From assembly GCA_919902495.1 (NCBI GenBank), contig CAKKRC010000068.1, positions 1 through 62,747 on the forward strand: DNA of 62,747 nt, read 5' to 3'. Below, in pieces: positions 3,418-46,765 of this stretch. The translations under genes were made by a program, and so were the position numbers. The first letter of the stretch is position 1, and every line of letters begins with the position of its first letter. Source of the DNA: Nitrospiria bacterium (GTDB lineage: Bacteria > Nitrospirota > UBA9217). A model generated the notes under the pieces. It made no database searches and had not been told where the DNA came from. It saw nothing but the letters and a program-made list of their open reading frames with translations.

Positions 3418-3560
3418 TCACCGCAGAGTACGCAGCCAAAAGTAGGCGCTTCTAAGCGAGGTCGCAGAGAACAGCAAGAGCTATTGTATCTGACTCTTGC
3501 CCATCGAATTGTTCCCTCTGCGCTCTCTGCGGTAAAATGCTTTTGAAATTGTGCTTGATT
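3418..3560. repeat. CGCAGAG-family dispersed palindrome carrying the 23-bp mini-hairpin
   Basis: Left arm TTCACCGCAGAG pairs with right arm CTCTCTGCGGTAAAATG to form an imperfect inverted repeat of about 140 bp. Related copies lie at 19776-19905 and 19970-20136. The similarity to the last copy continues into the NlpC/P60 3' end (to about 3597). Confidence 0.8.
3436..3458 (+). repeat. Nested 23-bp mini-hairpin, copy a
   Basis: Begins CCAAAAGTAGG and ends with the stem CGCTT-CT-AAGCG. It interrupts the CGCAGAG repeat between CGCAG and AGGTCGC. The repeat copy near 19990 has these flanks joined directly, so it is an empty site. Confidence 0.75.
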
Positions 3561-4341: not shown

Positions 4342-6267
4342 ATGAAGCACAAGGTCACCTTCCTGCCGGACAACGTCACCATCGAGATGGAGCACGACGG
4401 GAGCCTGTTCAAGGCCTCCAAGGCCGCCGGCGTCTACGTGCTCTCGTCCTGCGGCGGCAAGGGCAACTGCGGCAAGTGCAAGCTCGTCGTGAAGACCGGC
4501 ACGGTCGAACCCGGCCAGTCGCGCTCCTTCCTGACCGCCGAGGAGGCGGGCCGCGGGTACGTCCTCGCCTGCCACTCAAAGATCCAGAGCGATCTCGTCG
4601 TCGAGGTCCCCCAGGAATCGCGCATGCAGGCGAAGCACAAGATCGCGACCGGCGCCAATCCCGACGACATCCTGAAGCTCATGAAGCAGGCCGGCGGATG
4701 CCTGGAATCCCGCATCTTCCGCGTCTATCTCGACCTCGCCCCCCCCACCATCGACGACAACATCGCCGACTTCGAGCGGGTCCGGCGCGCCCTCGACAAC
4801 GCCGGGTTCAGCGCCGAGCACCTGCACATGAACTACCTGATGCTGAGCAAGCTGTCGCGCGTGCTCCGCGAGGGCCAGTGGAAGGTCACGGTCTCGGTCT
4901 TCAGTTACGGAGAAGTGCTTGAAGTGCTCGACATGTTCCCCGGCAACGCAACGAAGACCCGCTACGGAGCGGCCGTGGACATCGGCACCACCACCGTGGT
5001 CGTGTACCTCGTGGACATGAAGCACGGCCACATCGTCGGCACGGCGTCAACGTTCAACAGCCAGGTCAAGTGCGGCGACGACGTGATCACCCGCATCGTA
5101 TACGCCACGGAGAAGAACGGCCTCAAGGAGCTCCAGCAGCTCGCGGCCGGCAACATCAACACCCTGCTCGCGGACCTCGCCGAGAAGAACCAGATCGCGC
5201 CGGGCATGATCGATTACATCGTCGTGGCCGGCAACACCACCATGATGCACCTCTTCTACGGCATCGACCCCCAGCACATCCGGGAGGAGCCCTACATCCC
5301 GGCGGCGACCTTCTTCCCGCCGATCCGCGGCAAGAGCGTCGGCCTTCACCTTACGCCGCAGGCCGTCATCTACTCCATGCCGAACGTTGCCAGCTACGTG
5401 GGCGGCGACATCTCCTCGGGCGTGCTCGTATCGCAGATCCACAAGCAGGACAAGGTCTCGCTCTTCATCGACATCGGGACGAACGGCGAGATCGTACTGG
5501 GGAACAAGGAGTGGCTCGTGACCGCGGCCTGCTCGGCGGGCCCGGCGTTCGAAGGGAGCGGCATCAAGTTCGGCATGCGCGCCATGGAGGGCGCCATCGA
5601 GGAAGTGGAGATCGACCCGAAGACCTACGAGGTGAACTACCGGGTCATCGGCGACGTGAAGCCCATCGGCATCTGCGGGTCCGGCATGATCGACATCCTC
5701 GCCGAGATGTATCTGAACAACGTGATCGACCAGAAGGGGAAGATACGGGAGGAGATCGGCTCCAAGCGGGTCCGGCGGGGGGACTCGGGCCTCGAGTACG
5801 TCATTGCCTGGCGCATCGAGAGCGCCATCAACAAGGAGATCGTGATCACCGAGGTGGACCTGGACAACCTGATCCGCGCCAAGGCGGCCATCTACGCGGG
5901 ATTCGGCACGCTCCTCCACAAGATGAACATGGCCTTCGCCGACCTGGACAAGGTCTTCATCGCCGGCGGGTTCGGCCGGTACATCGACGTGGAGCGCGCC
6001 ATCACCATCGGCATGCTGCCCGACCTGCCCGTGGAAAAGTTCCAGTTCCTCGGCAACACGTCCATCATGGGCGCCTACTACGGCCTGCTGTGCGACCGCA
6101 TGCTGCACGAGGCTGAGGATATCGCCCGCAAGATGACCTACATCGAACTGTCCGTCTCGCGCAGCTTCATGGATGAATACATGTCGGCGCTGTTCCTGCC
6201 GCATACGAATATCAATGCGTTCCCGACGGTGAAGAAGATAATGGCGGCGAAGAACAGGCTGGTTTAA
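4342..6267 (+). CDS. RACo-type reductive activator of corrinoid proteins (2Fe-2S ferredoxin plus DUF4445 ASKHA ATPase)
   Basis: Uses ATP and an Fe-S cluster to re-reduce inactivated Co(II) corrinoid proteins of methyltransferase systems. The 641-residue protein begins with a plant-type 2Fe-2S domain whose ligands are Cys37, Cys43, Cys46 and Cys77 (SSCGGKGNCGKC ... LACH). A linker follows, then from about residue 210 the ASKHA/DUF4445 fold with DIGTTTVVVYLVD, VVAGNTTMMHL, FIDIGTNGEIVLG and AGGFGRYIDVE. No corrinoid protein or methyltransferase lies in the window, so the partner is elsewhere. The frame is open to a TTG at 4306, but that TTG is the -35 box, so ATG 4342 is chosen. Its last 200 bp are repeated exactly at 8528-8730. 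Confidence 0.9.
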   Translation: MKHKVTFLPDNVTIEMEHDGSLFKASKAAGVYVLSSCGGKGNCGKCKLVVKTGTVEPGQSRSFLTAEEAGRGYVLACHSKIQSDLVVEVPQESRMQAKHKIATGANPDDILKLMKQAGGCLESRIFRVYLDLAPPTIDDNIADFERVRRALDNAGFSAEHLHMNYLMLSKLSRVLREGQWKVTVSVFSYGEVLEVLDMFPGNATKTRYGAAVDIGTTTVVVYLVDMKHGHIVGTASTFNSQVKCGDDVITRIVYATEKNGLKELQQLAAGNINTLLADLAEKNQIAPGMIDYIVVAGNTTMMHLFYGIDPQHIREEPYIPAATFFPPIRGKSVGLHLTPQAVIYSMPNVASYVGGDISSGVLVSQIHKQDKVSLFIDIGTNGEIVLGNKEWLVTAACSAGPAFEGSGIKFGMRAMEGAIEEVEIDPKTYEVNYRVIGDVKPIGICGSGMIDILAEMYLNNVIDQKGKIREEIGSKRVRRGDSGLEYVIAWRIESAINKEIVITEVDLDNLIRAKAAIYAGFGTLLHKMNMAFADLDKVFIAGGFGRYIDVERAITIGMLPDLPVEKFQFLGNTSIMGAYYGLLCDRMLHEAEDIARKMTYIELSVSRSFMDEYMSALFLPHTNINAFPTVKKIMAAKNRLV

Positions 6268-6296
6268 GTTCTCCGCTGCCGCGCTCCAAACACGTA

Positions 6297-6335
6297 AGGC
6301 TGCCCGGTGAGATATACCGGACAGCCTTTATTATT
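6297..6335 (+). terminator. Rho-independent terminator of RACo
   Basis: AGGCTGCCCGGT pairs with ACCGGACAGCCT, followed by TTTATTATTT. Related hairpins follow both truncated RACo copies, at 8768 and 10843. Confidence 0.8.
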
Positions 6336-6346
6336 TCCGATTTAAG

Positions 6347-6460
6347 CTCCCTACAGATAACTGCATGGAGCTTCGATCCTCAAGGAAGTCCGTTATTCTA
6401 ATCACTCGCTAACCCCGCAGCAAGCTACGGGGAATGCGCTCGCTCCTGGATTCATTGCGG
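6347..6460. repeat. GAGCTTCGATCCTC dispersed repeat, copy 1 (no nested insert)
   Basis: Contains CATGGAGCTTCGATCCTCA, TTATTCTAATC.CTCGCTAAC and GGGGAATGCGCTCGCTCC. Related copies lie at 8818-9005 and 31672-31786, with a fragment at 20134-20155. GCAAG and CTACGGGG are directly joined here, which marks the empty site for the 63-bp insert seen in copy 2. Confidence 0.75.
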
Positions 6461-8440: not shown

Positions 8441-8737
8441 ATGGTCCGATACATCGACGTGGAACGCGCCATCACCATCGGCATGCTGCCGGACCTGCCC
8501 GTTGACACGTTCCACTTCCTGGGCAATACGTCCATCATGGGCGCCTACTACGGCCTGCTGTGCGACCGCATGCTGCACGAGGCTGAGGATATCGCCCGCA
8601 AGATGACCTACATCGAACTGTCCGTCTCGCGCAGCTTCATGGATGAATACATGTCGGCGCTGTTCCTGCCGCATACGAATATCAATGCGTTCCCGACGGT
8701 GAAGAAGATAATGGCGGCGAAGAACAGGCTCGTCTGA
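8441..8737 (+). pseudogene. Truncated RACo 3' end, copy 2
   Basis: Encodes the last roughly 98 residues of RACo (RYIDVERAITIGMLPDL ... AAKNRLV) without the ferredoxin or most of the ATPase domain. The first 87 bp differ from RACo at several positions. Bases 8528-8730 are identical to 6058-6260. The copy begins right after GACCTGACCCTATGGTCC and is followed by its own terminator and downstream repeat. It may be a displaced 3' end or a deletion relic; expression as a small protein is unlikely. Confidence 0.85.
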
Positions 8738-8767
8738 CGAAGGTCTCCGCTGGACGCGCTCCAAACA

Positions 8768-8806
8768 AGCAAGGCTGTCCGGTGATATCCGCCGGACAGC
8801 CTTTAT
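8768..8806 (+). terminator. Terminator of the RACo copy 2 relic
   Basis: AAGGCTGTCCGG pairs with CCGGACAGCCTT, followed by TATTATTT. It is homologous to the RACo terminator at 6297. Confidence 0.75.
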
Positions 8807-8817
8807 TATTTCCGATT

Positions 8818-9005
8818 GAAGCTCCCTGCAGCCAGCCGCAGGGAATCTTCGATCCTCAAGGTTGAACTAATTATTCTAATCGCTCGCTAACCCCGCAGCA
8901 AGACTTCGGCGAGCTCAGTGGTTCGACGGTGCTCACCACCGTGAGCCTGTCGAATGGTCGAGCCGCTACGGGGAATGCGCTCGCTCCTGGATTCACTGCG
9001 GTTTC
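8818..9005. repeat. GAGCTTCGATCCTC dispersed repeat, copy 2, interrupted
   Basis: The same element as 6347-6460, but split by a 63-bp palindromic insert at 8903-8965. Confidence 0.75.
8903..8965. repeat. 63-bp palindromic insert within the repeat
   Basis: Core TTCGACGGTGCTCAC ... GTGAGCCTGTCGAA folds into a hairpin. Copy 1 of the host repeat (near 6424) has the flanks GCAAG and CTACGGGG directly joined, so this is an insertion. Confidence 0.7.
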
Positions 9006-10596: not shown

Positions 10597-10813
10597 TTGA
10601 CCGTACCCTTTATATGGGTGACCCTGTCGGTTCTCATGCTCCATGAAGCGGAGGAGATCGCGCGGCCAATGACCTATATCGCGCTTTCCGTGTCGCATAA
10701 CTTCATGGACGAGTGCATACAGGCGCTGTTCCTGCCCGCACACGGACCTGAACGCATTCCCGACGGTGAAGCATCAAATGAAGAAGGCGAAGGCATGGTA
10801 CCCGCCCGAATAG
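10597..10813 (+). pseudogene. RACo copy 3: promoter-region sequence fused to the 3' end
   Basis: The 15-mer TGACCCTGTCGGTTC at 10619-10633 also occurs at the RACo promoter (4307-4321). It is followed almost at once by a diverged RACo C-terminus (MLHEAEEIARPMTYIALSVS). A one-base insertion after LFLP shifts the frame; the corrected reading continues to a TAG at 10811. This looks like a RACo paralogue that lost its whole interior by deletion and then decayed. Confidence 0.75.
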
Positions 10814-10842
10814 AACGATTTCACTATCGCGCGAAGCAAAAC

Positions 10843-10880
10843 GGCTGTCCGGTGAGATCCACCGAACAGCCTTTATTTTT
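10843..10880 (+). terminator. Terminator following the RACo copy 3 relic
   Basis: GGCTGTCCGGTG pairs imperfectly with CACCGAACAGCC, followed by TTTATTTTTTCC. It could also stop the opposing gene at 10900-11235. Confidence 0.7.
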
Positions 10881-10899
10881 TCCGAACATGTGGCATCGA

Positions 10900-15429: not shown

Positions 15430-15603
15430 CCGCAAACGGCGTCTCGCGCAAAGCCGCAAAGGCGCAAAGTAAGGACAGGTGTAAAAAATGCGAACATCTG
15501 TAATTTGTTTTAAATTCTTTCCGTCCAGACATGAAGCTATTTCAAACTTCTGCCGTTGTCTTCCTTATGCGTCTTTGCGGCTTTGCGCGAGATGCCGTTC
15601 GCT
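15430..15603. repeat. CGCAAAG-family dispersed palindrome
   Basis: CTCGCGCAAAGCCGCAAAGG on the left pairs with TGCGGCTTTGCGCGAG on the right around a variable centre. Relatives lie at 25641-25858, 26535-26730, 37215-37355 and 45799-46008. Confidence 0.85.
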
Positions 15604-19969: not shown

Positions 19970-20136
19970 ATCTCACCGCAGAGAACGCAGAGGTCGCGGA
20001 GAACAGCGAGAAAGCAGGATAACCGACTCAGCCTTGGCATTGTCTCCCTCTGCGTTCTCAGCGCTCTCTGCGGTAAAATGCTTTTCAGTTGTTCTTGATC
20101 GTGAATTACAGGAACCAGCGGGTATCGAGGTAGTGC
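19970..20136. repeat. CGCAGAG-family palindrome, copy 3, with an NlpC/P60 3'-end relic
   Basis: TCTCACCGCAGAGAACGCAG ... CTCTCTGCGGTAAAATGC, followed by GGAACCAGCGGGTATCGAGG, which on the minus strand encodes HYLDTRWFL and a stop context like that of the NlpC/P60 gene. It is the empty-site counterpart of the mini-hairpin insertion at 3436. Directly after it comes a fragment (TCTAATCGCTCGCT) of the GAGCTTCGATCCTC repeat. Confidence 0.75.
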
Positions 20137-25640: not shown

Positions 25641-25858
25641 TGAAAAACTTTTTTCGCGCAAAGACGCAAAGGCGCAAAGGCGCAAAGAAAGGATGGCCCT
25701 CACAAGAACAGTACGCCGTAAAACGGAGTGAATAACAGAACCTTAATCCATGTGTTTCTTATCAAAACTCAGAAGCCTTGCTCACGCTTCTGCTGTTGTT
25801 TTTCTTTGCGTGCTTGGCGGCTTTGCGCGAGACAGCCGTTCGCAGTAGTTTTTCAACT
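25641..25858. repeat. CGCAAAG-family dispersed palindrome, full-length copy
   Basis: Runs from TGAAAAACTTTTTTCGCGCA to GTTCGCAGTAGTTTTTCAAC. On the minus strand it is closely similar to 45799-46008, including GCAAAGCCGCCAAGCACGCA. Confidence 0.85.
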
Positions 25859-26534: not shown

Positions 26535-26730
26535 CTCTCGCAAAGCCGCCAAGCACGCAAAGAAAGGCAACGACTGAAGCTTGAAAAAGACCGTTGCATC
26601 TGAACGTGATGACCTTAAATCAGGTTTTTGCTTTTCATCGTGTCTTTAACTGCTTACAGTTTTTATGAATGCTTATCTTTTCTTCGCGCCTTTGCGCCTC
26701 GCTTAGAAGCGCCTACTGTTGGTTGCGAGA
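26535..26730. repeat. CGCAAAG-family palindrome carrying the 23-bp mini-hairpin
   Basis: The left arm is CTCGCAAAGCCGCCAAGCAC. The right arm GCGCCTTTGCG is interrupted by the mini-hairpin before TTGCGAGA. It fills the upstream region of the small rhodanese gene. Confidence 0.8.
26700..26722 (-). repeat. Nested 23-bp mini-hairpin, copy b
   Basis: On the minus strand it begins CCAACAGTAGG and ends CGCTTCTAAGCG. It is identical to copy c at 37233-37255 and differs from copy a by one base. Confidence 0.75.
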
Positions 26731-31638: not shown

Positions 31639-31671
31639 GGTGCAGCCATCCTCCTGTGCGGGAAAATACTA

Positions 31672-31786
31672 TTGAAGCTCCCTGCAGATAACTTCATGGA
31701 GCTTCGATCCTCAGGGAAATTAGTTATTCTAATCGCTCGCTAACCCCGCGGCAGCTGCGGGGCAGCGCTCGCTCCTGGATTCATCC
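31672..31786. repeat. GAGCTTCGATCCTC dispersed repeat, copy 3
   Basis: GAAGCTCCCTGCAGATAACT to CGCTCGCTCCTGGATTCAT is homologous to 6347-6460. It separates the two small YYKNLYK genes. Confidence 0.75.
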
Positions 31787-37214: not shown

Positions 37215-37355
37215 CAAGAAATTTTCTCGCAACCAACAGTAGGCGCTTCTAAGCGAGGCGCTAAGCTCGCAAAGAAAAACAAAGCACTCGGATTAAAAGC
37301 CAGGACTTAAAGATTCCCTTTGCGGCCTTTGCGGCTTTGCGAGAGACGCCTTTTT
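37215..37355. repeat. CGCAAAG-family palindrome with mini-hairpin, between nuoD and nuoH
   Basis: TTTTCTCGCAA is followed by the 23-bp insert, then AGGCGCTAAGCTCGCAAAG. The right arm is TTTGCGGCTTTGCGAGAG. No gene lies in 37130-37443. Confidence 0.8.
37233..37255 (+). repeat. Nested 23-bp mini-hairpin, copy c
   Basis: It begins CCAACAGTAGG and ends CGCTTCTAAGCG. It is identical to copy b on the other strand at 26700-26722. Confidence 0.75.
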
Positions 37356-45798: not shown

Positions 45799-46008
45799 AG
45801 TTGAAAAGCTACTGCGAACGGCTGTCTCGCGCAAAGCCGCCAAGCACGCAAAGAAAGACAACGACAGCAGCTTGAGAACAATCGATAGATTTTGCTGCGA
45901 AGACATAAATCGAATTCTTGTTTCTTGAGCTGTTTTTACGGCTTACTGCATTTATGAGGGTTATCCTTTCTTTGCGCCTTTGCGTCTTTGCGCGAAAATG
46001 GTTTCTCA
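45799..46008. repeat. CGCAAAG-family palindrome, full-length copy downstream of nuoN
   Basis: Closely similar to the minus strand of 25641-25858, from CTACTGCGAACGGCTGTCTC to TTTGCGTCTTTGCGCGAAAA. No gene lies in 45780-46121. Confidence 0.85.
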
Positions 46009-46595: not shown

Positions 46596-46765
46596 TTGGA
46601 CGCTGATTTGCGCGGATAGCCAAAAGCAGGCGCCTCCAGGCGGCGCGGATAAAATCAGAACTTCTTATCGAAAGACGACCATCATGGTGAAGATTTTACC
46701 GATAGAAATTTGGATTTTTTACCGGCCTTTATCCGATGTTATCAGATATTATCCGCGGCCGAATG
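46596..46765. repeat. GCGGATA-family palindrome carrying the mini-hairpin
   Basis: CGCTGATTTGCGCGGATAG on the left pairs with ATCAGATATTATCCGCGG on the right. The 23-bp mini-hairpin interrupts the left arm. No gene lies in 46551-46863. Confidence 0.7.
46620..46642 (+). repeat. Nested 23-bp mini-hairpin, copy d with compensatory changes
   Basis: It begins CCAAAAGCAGG and ends with the stem CGCCT-CC-AGGCG. Compared with CGCTT-CT-AAGCG in the other copies, both arms have changed together and pairing is kept. Confidence 0.7.

Follow-up and report, generated by a model that had tools for sequence, protein, structure and literature searches.

The window, a stretch of 62,747 nt which is contig 68 of a Nitrospirota genome (G000, 3.67-Mb assembly), carried four copies of a 23-nt unit, CCARMAGYAGGCGCYTCYARGCG, each of which sat within a palindromic repeat (Table 1). 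The copies were exactly at the coordinates and on the strands given for them in an earlier note on this DNA, and their hosts were those named there, a CGCAGAG palindrome once, a CGCAAAG palindrome twice and a GCGGATA palindrome once. The stem CGCTT-CT-AAGCG of copies a to c and the stem variant of copy d were likewise confirmed in the sequence. Copy d was atypical, with GCAG for GTAG and with G as the base after the unit, a place that A took behind 87 of the 89 copies read closely in this genome.

Table 1. Copies of the 23-nt unit, arms of their host palindromes and an empty site in the window (a slash marks the insertion point)
Feature	Position	Strand	Remark
Copy a, CCAAAAGTAGGCGCTTCTAAGCG	3436..3458	+	stem 3447-3451 with 3454-3458
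Copy b, CCAACAGTAGGCGCTTCTAAGCG	26700..26722	-	CGCAAAG host (TCTCGCAA/AGGCGC)
Copy c, CCAACAGTAGGCGCTTCTAAGCG	37233..37255	+	CGCAAAG host (TCTCGCAA/AGGCGC)
Copy d, CCAAAAGCAGGCGCCTCCAGGCG	46620..46642	+	GCGGATA host; stem variant CGCCT-CC-AGGCG
5' arm of CGCAGAG host palindrome, ACCGCAGAGTACGCAG	3420..3435	+	split by copy a; inverted repeat back after removal
Un-inserted 3' arm, host palindrome of copy a, CCCTCTGCGCTCTCTGCGGT	3514..3533	+	empty site in cis
Un-inserted 3' arm, host palindrome of copy c	37318..37346	+	
Approximate un-inserted 3' arm, host palindrome of copy d, TATCCG...TTATCCGCGG	46728..46758	+	read by eye
Paralogous empty site ACGCAG/AGGTCGC, junction 19990/19991	19985..19997	+	joined-flank search

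Structure and copy number of the element

The element began with six nucleotides (CCARMA), followed by the unpaired GTAG tag, a single G and a hairpin of 5 bp whose loop was 2 nt long (CGCYT-CY-ARGCG), and with this one hairpin it was too short to code for a protein. About 85-90 copies existed in the genome. The 21-mer AGTAGGCGCTTCTAAGCGAGG gave 77 matches at up to 3 mismatches in the 3.67 Mb, with 0 for the reversed pattern, and 3 matches in the window, with 0 in 100 shuffles, so chance was excluded. Close reading of 57 stretches and the window, 1.17 Mb in total, revealed 89 copies with at most 4 mismatches, 61 of them exactly CCARMAGYAGGCGCYTCYARGCG. The mismatch distribution was bimodal, the copies lying at 4 or fewer and a noise shoulder at 5-6. 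GTAG or GCAG stood directly 5' of the G and stem in nearly all of the 89 copies, and only 2 doublets within 200 bp were observed among 87 copies. Inverted copies about 100 bp apart were present in L325 (9946/10053), L333 (9950/10048) and L398 (1416/1501), which appear to occupy opposite arms of one palindrome, so that a host can take up a copy in each arm.

The hairpin is under selection, as had been proposed from the four copies, since stem changes covaried in further copies as well. Among 63 distinct sequences 95.9% of the cells paired, and 0-2 of 500 shuffles reached the observed measures; changes on both sides were found at three of the five stem pairs in 21 cells, a number that none of 500 shuffles equalled. 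Pair 4 was T-A in 143, C-G in 103, T-G in 8 and C-A in 0 of 257 copies. The stem was CACCT-CT-AGGTG in one copy of G000 and TGCCT-CT-AGGCA in a variant from Geobacteraceae. A sub-lineage in which the outer pair had changed in a compensated way from C-G to T-A, CCARAAGTAGGTGCCTCTAGGCA, had multiplied in Geobacteraceae, being seen on several contigs of G073 and on C67 and C91 of G078. By itself the 24-mer had a DNA fold of only mild stability (-2.6 to -3.6 kcal/mol, z about -1), so it is covariation and not energy on which the hairpin is based.

Precise insertion into host palindromes

The 23-nt unit was constant while its surroundings differed, so the ends of the element are fixed. Flank columns varied except for the first 3' base, the A mentioned above, and a loose CRCRR was found on the 5' side. 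The insertion point was purine/A, with the consensus CRCRR/A, in the 5' arm or the loop of the host palindromes. Three host families had been claimed, but more than eight host classes were counted in G000 (among them CGCAGAG, CGCAAAG, CACGAAG, CACAGAG, CACAAAG, CACCGAG, CACTGAG, CACAGAT/CGGAT, CRCGGGGAC arrays and CTCTCCC palindromes). In other lineages the hosts were GTGCCCA/AAGAAAAGTAACC and GTTCGCCCTG/AGTTTGTCGAAGGGCGAAC (Solimonas and relatives), CCCCTCCTA/AATAGGAGGGG (Geobacteraceae), CACGGATG/ACACGGATT (Methylobacter) and CGCA/ACGACGCAACG (Geotalea). One copy in a Sulfuricellaceae MAG (L144) seemed to split a coding-looking region and not a palindrome.

The host repeats constituted a superfamily of palindromes made from CRCRRAR heptamers (CGCAGAG, CGCAAAG, CACGAAG, CACAGAT and others), with several hundred units per Mb in G000, and they also existed in relatives free of the element; examples in the window were at 15447-15475, 25657-25693 and 45830-45858. 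The window contained in addition a block of up to 288 nt that recurred with 2.47-kb spacing (5976-6422, 8446-8900 and 10624-10885); after it came GGCTGTCCGGTGAGATATACCGGACAGCC, a hairpin resembling a terminator, and a shared tail, which was found again at 31671 (31671-31753).

Empty sites, which had been sought as a test of mobility, were present as paralogous flanks, as un-inserted 3' arms and as orthologous sites. Joined 16-nt flanks occurred elsewhere without the element for 39 of the 89 copies in the sampled part of G000, against 0.2% of random 23-nt deletions, and joined flanks of at least 14 nt for 51 of the 89, against 1.9%. The direct junction near 19990 was as the earlier note had described it. 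When the unit was removed, an inverted repeat spanning the junction (score of at least 11) was restored in 34% of cases in G000, 19% in the congeneric genome G001, 68% in Geobacterales and 49% in the others, compared with at most 1% at random control sites; since removal rebuilt the palindrome, the intact 3' arm is an empty site in cis.

Comparison of G001 with G000 gave filled and empty states of orthologous sites. At the first site, CCCCGTGT[CGCTTAGAAGCGCCTACTTTTGG]CACCGCGTC in G001 corresponded to CCCCGTGTCACCGCGTC in G000, the gap being exactly 23 nt; a second (L348 and L323) also had an exact 23-nt gap, and a third (L367 and L291) a near-exact one. No target duplication was found at these orthologous sites. 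Rather than belonging permanently to the host repeats, the element is a precise insertion into its target, and it is mobile. The earlier reading of a mobile unit in palindromic repeats thus largely holds, neither a unit lacking empty sites within longer repeats nor stem changes without covariation having been found. With some 85-90 clean insertions into palindromic repeats, it ranks among the smallest mobile DNA elements and among the most widely spread.

Strand preference, distribution and search for the transposase

Orientation was compared with local GC skew, taken over up to 20 kb of the stretch around each copy. The GTAG strand lay on the G-rich strand at a ratio of 65:24 in G000 (65/89, p 1.6e-5), 22:10 in G001 (22/32) and 18:9 in Geobacterales (18/27), the bias being strongly significant by itself only in G000, while empty target motifs within the same DNA were divided 714:712, 221:182 and 80:81, respectively. 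A cruder 8-kb test on mixed genomes gave a weak 64:50. The G-rich strand is usually the leading strand in bacteria, and if this applies here, the ratios point to entry of the element into the lagging-strand template. A strand bias together with unbiased empty motifs points to single-strand insertion into that template, in the manner of IS200/IS605 and REPs; the bias could also stem from copies in the opposite orientation being lost selectively.

A scan of 84,980 genomes gave at least 108 stretches with the element. Carriers among the matches listed were Geobacteraceae and other Desulfuromonadales, Methylobacter, Sulfuricellaceae, Hydrogenophilales, Solimonas, Stenotrophobium, Nitrospirae and one MAG labelled Bacillales, so at least three phyla were spanned, Nitrospirota, Desulfobacterota and Pseudomonadota. 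Presence was patchy, with 12 of 296 Nitrospirota and 19 of 201 genomes in the order of M. tundripaludum. About 15 chance matches were estimated for the 19-base degenerate pattern in the 84,980 genomes; unlike this expectation, the listed matches clustered many per genome and carried the full 23 nt. Genome G522, from the Geotalea group and possibly that of G. uraniireducens, had 16 copies, and a single contig of some 5.1 Mb held all the matches. As to viral spread, no exact match to the element occurred in 2.9 million viral contigs. No known RNA of Rfam was matched within the window, and neither the element nor the tested host repeats was found in the published texts searched.

Y1 genes (PF01797) were searched in G000, the host family, 22 carriers and G522, and their flanks were then scanned for the element. 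None of about 100 Y1/RAYT loci of the carriers was flanked by it, nor was any of the 14 Y1 genes of G522, all of which were more than 22 kb from any copy. The scan had a positive control, because other RAYTs in carrier genomes showed their own paired GTAG hairpins, such as GTAGG[GTGGGCT]TT[AGCCCAC]. One copy was 0.6 kb beyond the end of a Y1 gene (L251), where it sat in an ordinary host repeat. With no flanked Y1 gene among the carrier loci or in G522, the element is an orphan. The Y1/RAYT link expected in the earlier note therefore stands in part, in that the anatomy and the strand bias fit a single-strand mechanism of Y1 type, but no RAYT was flanked by the element.

Two other leads were rejected. 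Presence or absence of Y1 genes did not track the element, as all 14 members of the host family had such genes whether they carried it or not. The Y1 genes of G000 were dismissed as cognate since their terminal inverted repeats (GGGGACGTTG..., AGGGTCAGGTC...) were unrelated to it. L074, L213 and L247 (G000 and G001) encoded Y1 proteins of about 330 aa with a DnaA-like helix-turn-helix C-terminus and had inverted repeats with GGGGACGTTG on their flanks; they resembled the TIRYT genes of Di Nocera 2013 (PMC3733652).

Known systems and the mode of movement

In the available sections of Di Nocera 2013 (PMC3733652), the GTAG-tagged REP superfamily is characterized by an unpaired GTAG at one end of a stem-loop, a stem of 5-13 bp, a loop of 2-20 nt and complementary stem variants, with dispersed copies in several phyla and with RAYT flanking and doublets that are typical, not universal. 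Some of these families lie inside palindromes (GTAG-23 of T. roseum and GTAG-15 of A. variabilis), and GTAG-11 is a family listed for Geobacter uraniireducens. The element shared with GTAG-tagged REPs the unpaired GTAG, a 5-bp stem, a 2-nt loop, stem covariation and dispersed copies. It differed in the six extra nucleotides 5' of GTAG in the mobile unit and in one sequence being common to at least three phyla, and, from typical members, in occurring almost always singly (2 doublets/87 copies) and in having no RAYT neighbour (0 of about 100 Y1 loci; 0/14 in G522). Orthologous empty sites and strand bias are not reported in those sections. The element may be the GTAG-11 family, the two being compared by description, which qualifies the earlier statement that it was unnamed.

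TnpA-REP acts on a tag with a hairpin, and the template of the lagging strand is where IS200/IS605 insert (PMC6006769). The element was similar to both in its hairpin with a tetranucleotide 5' of the foot, the absence of target duplication and the lagging-strand template bias. It was different from IS200/IS605 in having a single hairpin instead of one per end and neither its own nor a linked tnpA, and from IS200/IS605 and RAYT systems together in a loose CRCRR/A target in palindromes where those systems have a fixed tetranucleotide. What RAYT systems usually move is a REP doublet, whereas the element was mostly single. REPINs (Bertels and Rainey 2011, PMC3116915) consist of inverted doublets, their singlets being regarded as dead remnants. 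Like REPINs the element is a non-autonomous hairpin which spreads within a genome, yet its singles bear clean insertion signatures.

The small dispersed repeats (SDRs) of heterocystous cyanobacteria are reportedly about 21-27 nt long, with a hairpin showing compensatory changes, and reportedly insert precisely in other repeats including tandem heptamers; they are said to be confined to one cyanobacterial group. By description, the element was like them in its 23 nt, its covarying hairpin and its precise insertion into repeats, and unlike them in spanning three phyla instead of one cyanobacterial group. Precise insertion of SDR5 in HIP1 is mentioned in PMC4390886, which cites Elhai 2008 for it. 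The element fits a minimal GTAG-tagged REP by structure, and by behaviour it is closest to a cyanobacterial SDR.

The unit is a non-autonomous 23-nt mobile element, probably moved by single-strand transposition. Structure, precision and strand bias argue for a mechanism of Y1 type, with an HUH/Y1-type enzyme and a single-stranded DNA intermediate. The lagging-strand template would be exposed at the fork and the element would fold at its hairpin; an enzyme acting in trans would read tag and hairpin, cut and join the element, which would then enter another exposed palindrome on the same strand. We propose more tentatively that the 23 nt could be a complete single-hairpin transposition substrate, which crossed phyla and enters palindromic repeats by precise single-strand insertion, driven in trans by an unrecognised enzyme and not by a linked RAYT.

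Spread without an enzyme, in which polymerase template switching or gene conversion at stalled forks copied the hairpin into palindromes, seems unlikely. Palindromic hosts may stall forks, the strand bias suits a replication process, no cognate transposase was found in the Y1 flank scans, and the CRCRR/A common to many hosts could help as short homology within a host family; but the ends were base-precise across more than eight unrelated hosts and several phyla with flanks sharing only R/A, template switching usually brings flanking sequence along, and the fixed six-nucleotide leader would be left unexplained. GC skew predicted orientation better than coding direction did (1.16±0.33 against 0.49±0.29 in a two-factor logit for G000), and the bias was also seen at convergent and divergent sites (24:7), which leaves only a slight chance for movement through a small RNA, inserted first and reverse-transcribed afterwards. 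Elhai reportedly suggested such an intermediate for cyanobacterial SDRs, and it would suit the lean of orientation with neighbouring genes (60:29 net coding) and the G-U wobble intermediates at pair 4, though single-stranded DNA forms T-G pairs too. Another class of recombinase on folded sites, integron-integrase-like or IS110-like, is improbable to a similar degree: no attC-like core motif was visible by eye and the unit is single and fixed, not a cassette, despite duplication-free site-specific insertion into hairpins that resembles the use of attC and the failure of the Y1 scans to find the moving enzyme. Although each window copy sits within a repeat, it is hardly conceivable that the unit is an immobile, constant internal part of longer dispersed repeats, which the orthologous empty sites already refute and against which also stand the unrelated hosts in other phyla and the approximately 88 (44+44) TCTCGCAAAG host motifs, without the element, of G003 from the same family.

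Mobility of REPs and SDRs is a suspicion of long standing, and clean filled and empty sites for a single unit are, to our knowledge, rare. What is new is that palindromes are targeted, that the sequence is identical across phyla and that its transposase is missing. Finding one unit in phyla so far apart suggests that it moved horizontally or that the enzyme is widely shared, and from its nesting in other palindromes it seems that one repeat can be the landing site of another. Now that the unit of 23 nt is defined together with its exact ends, target and strand preference, which enzyme moves a lone hairpin can be tested directly.
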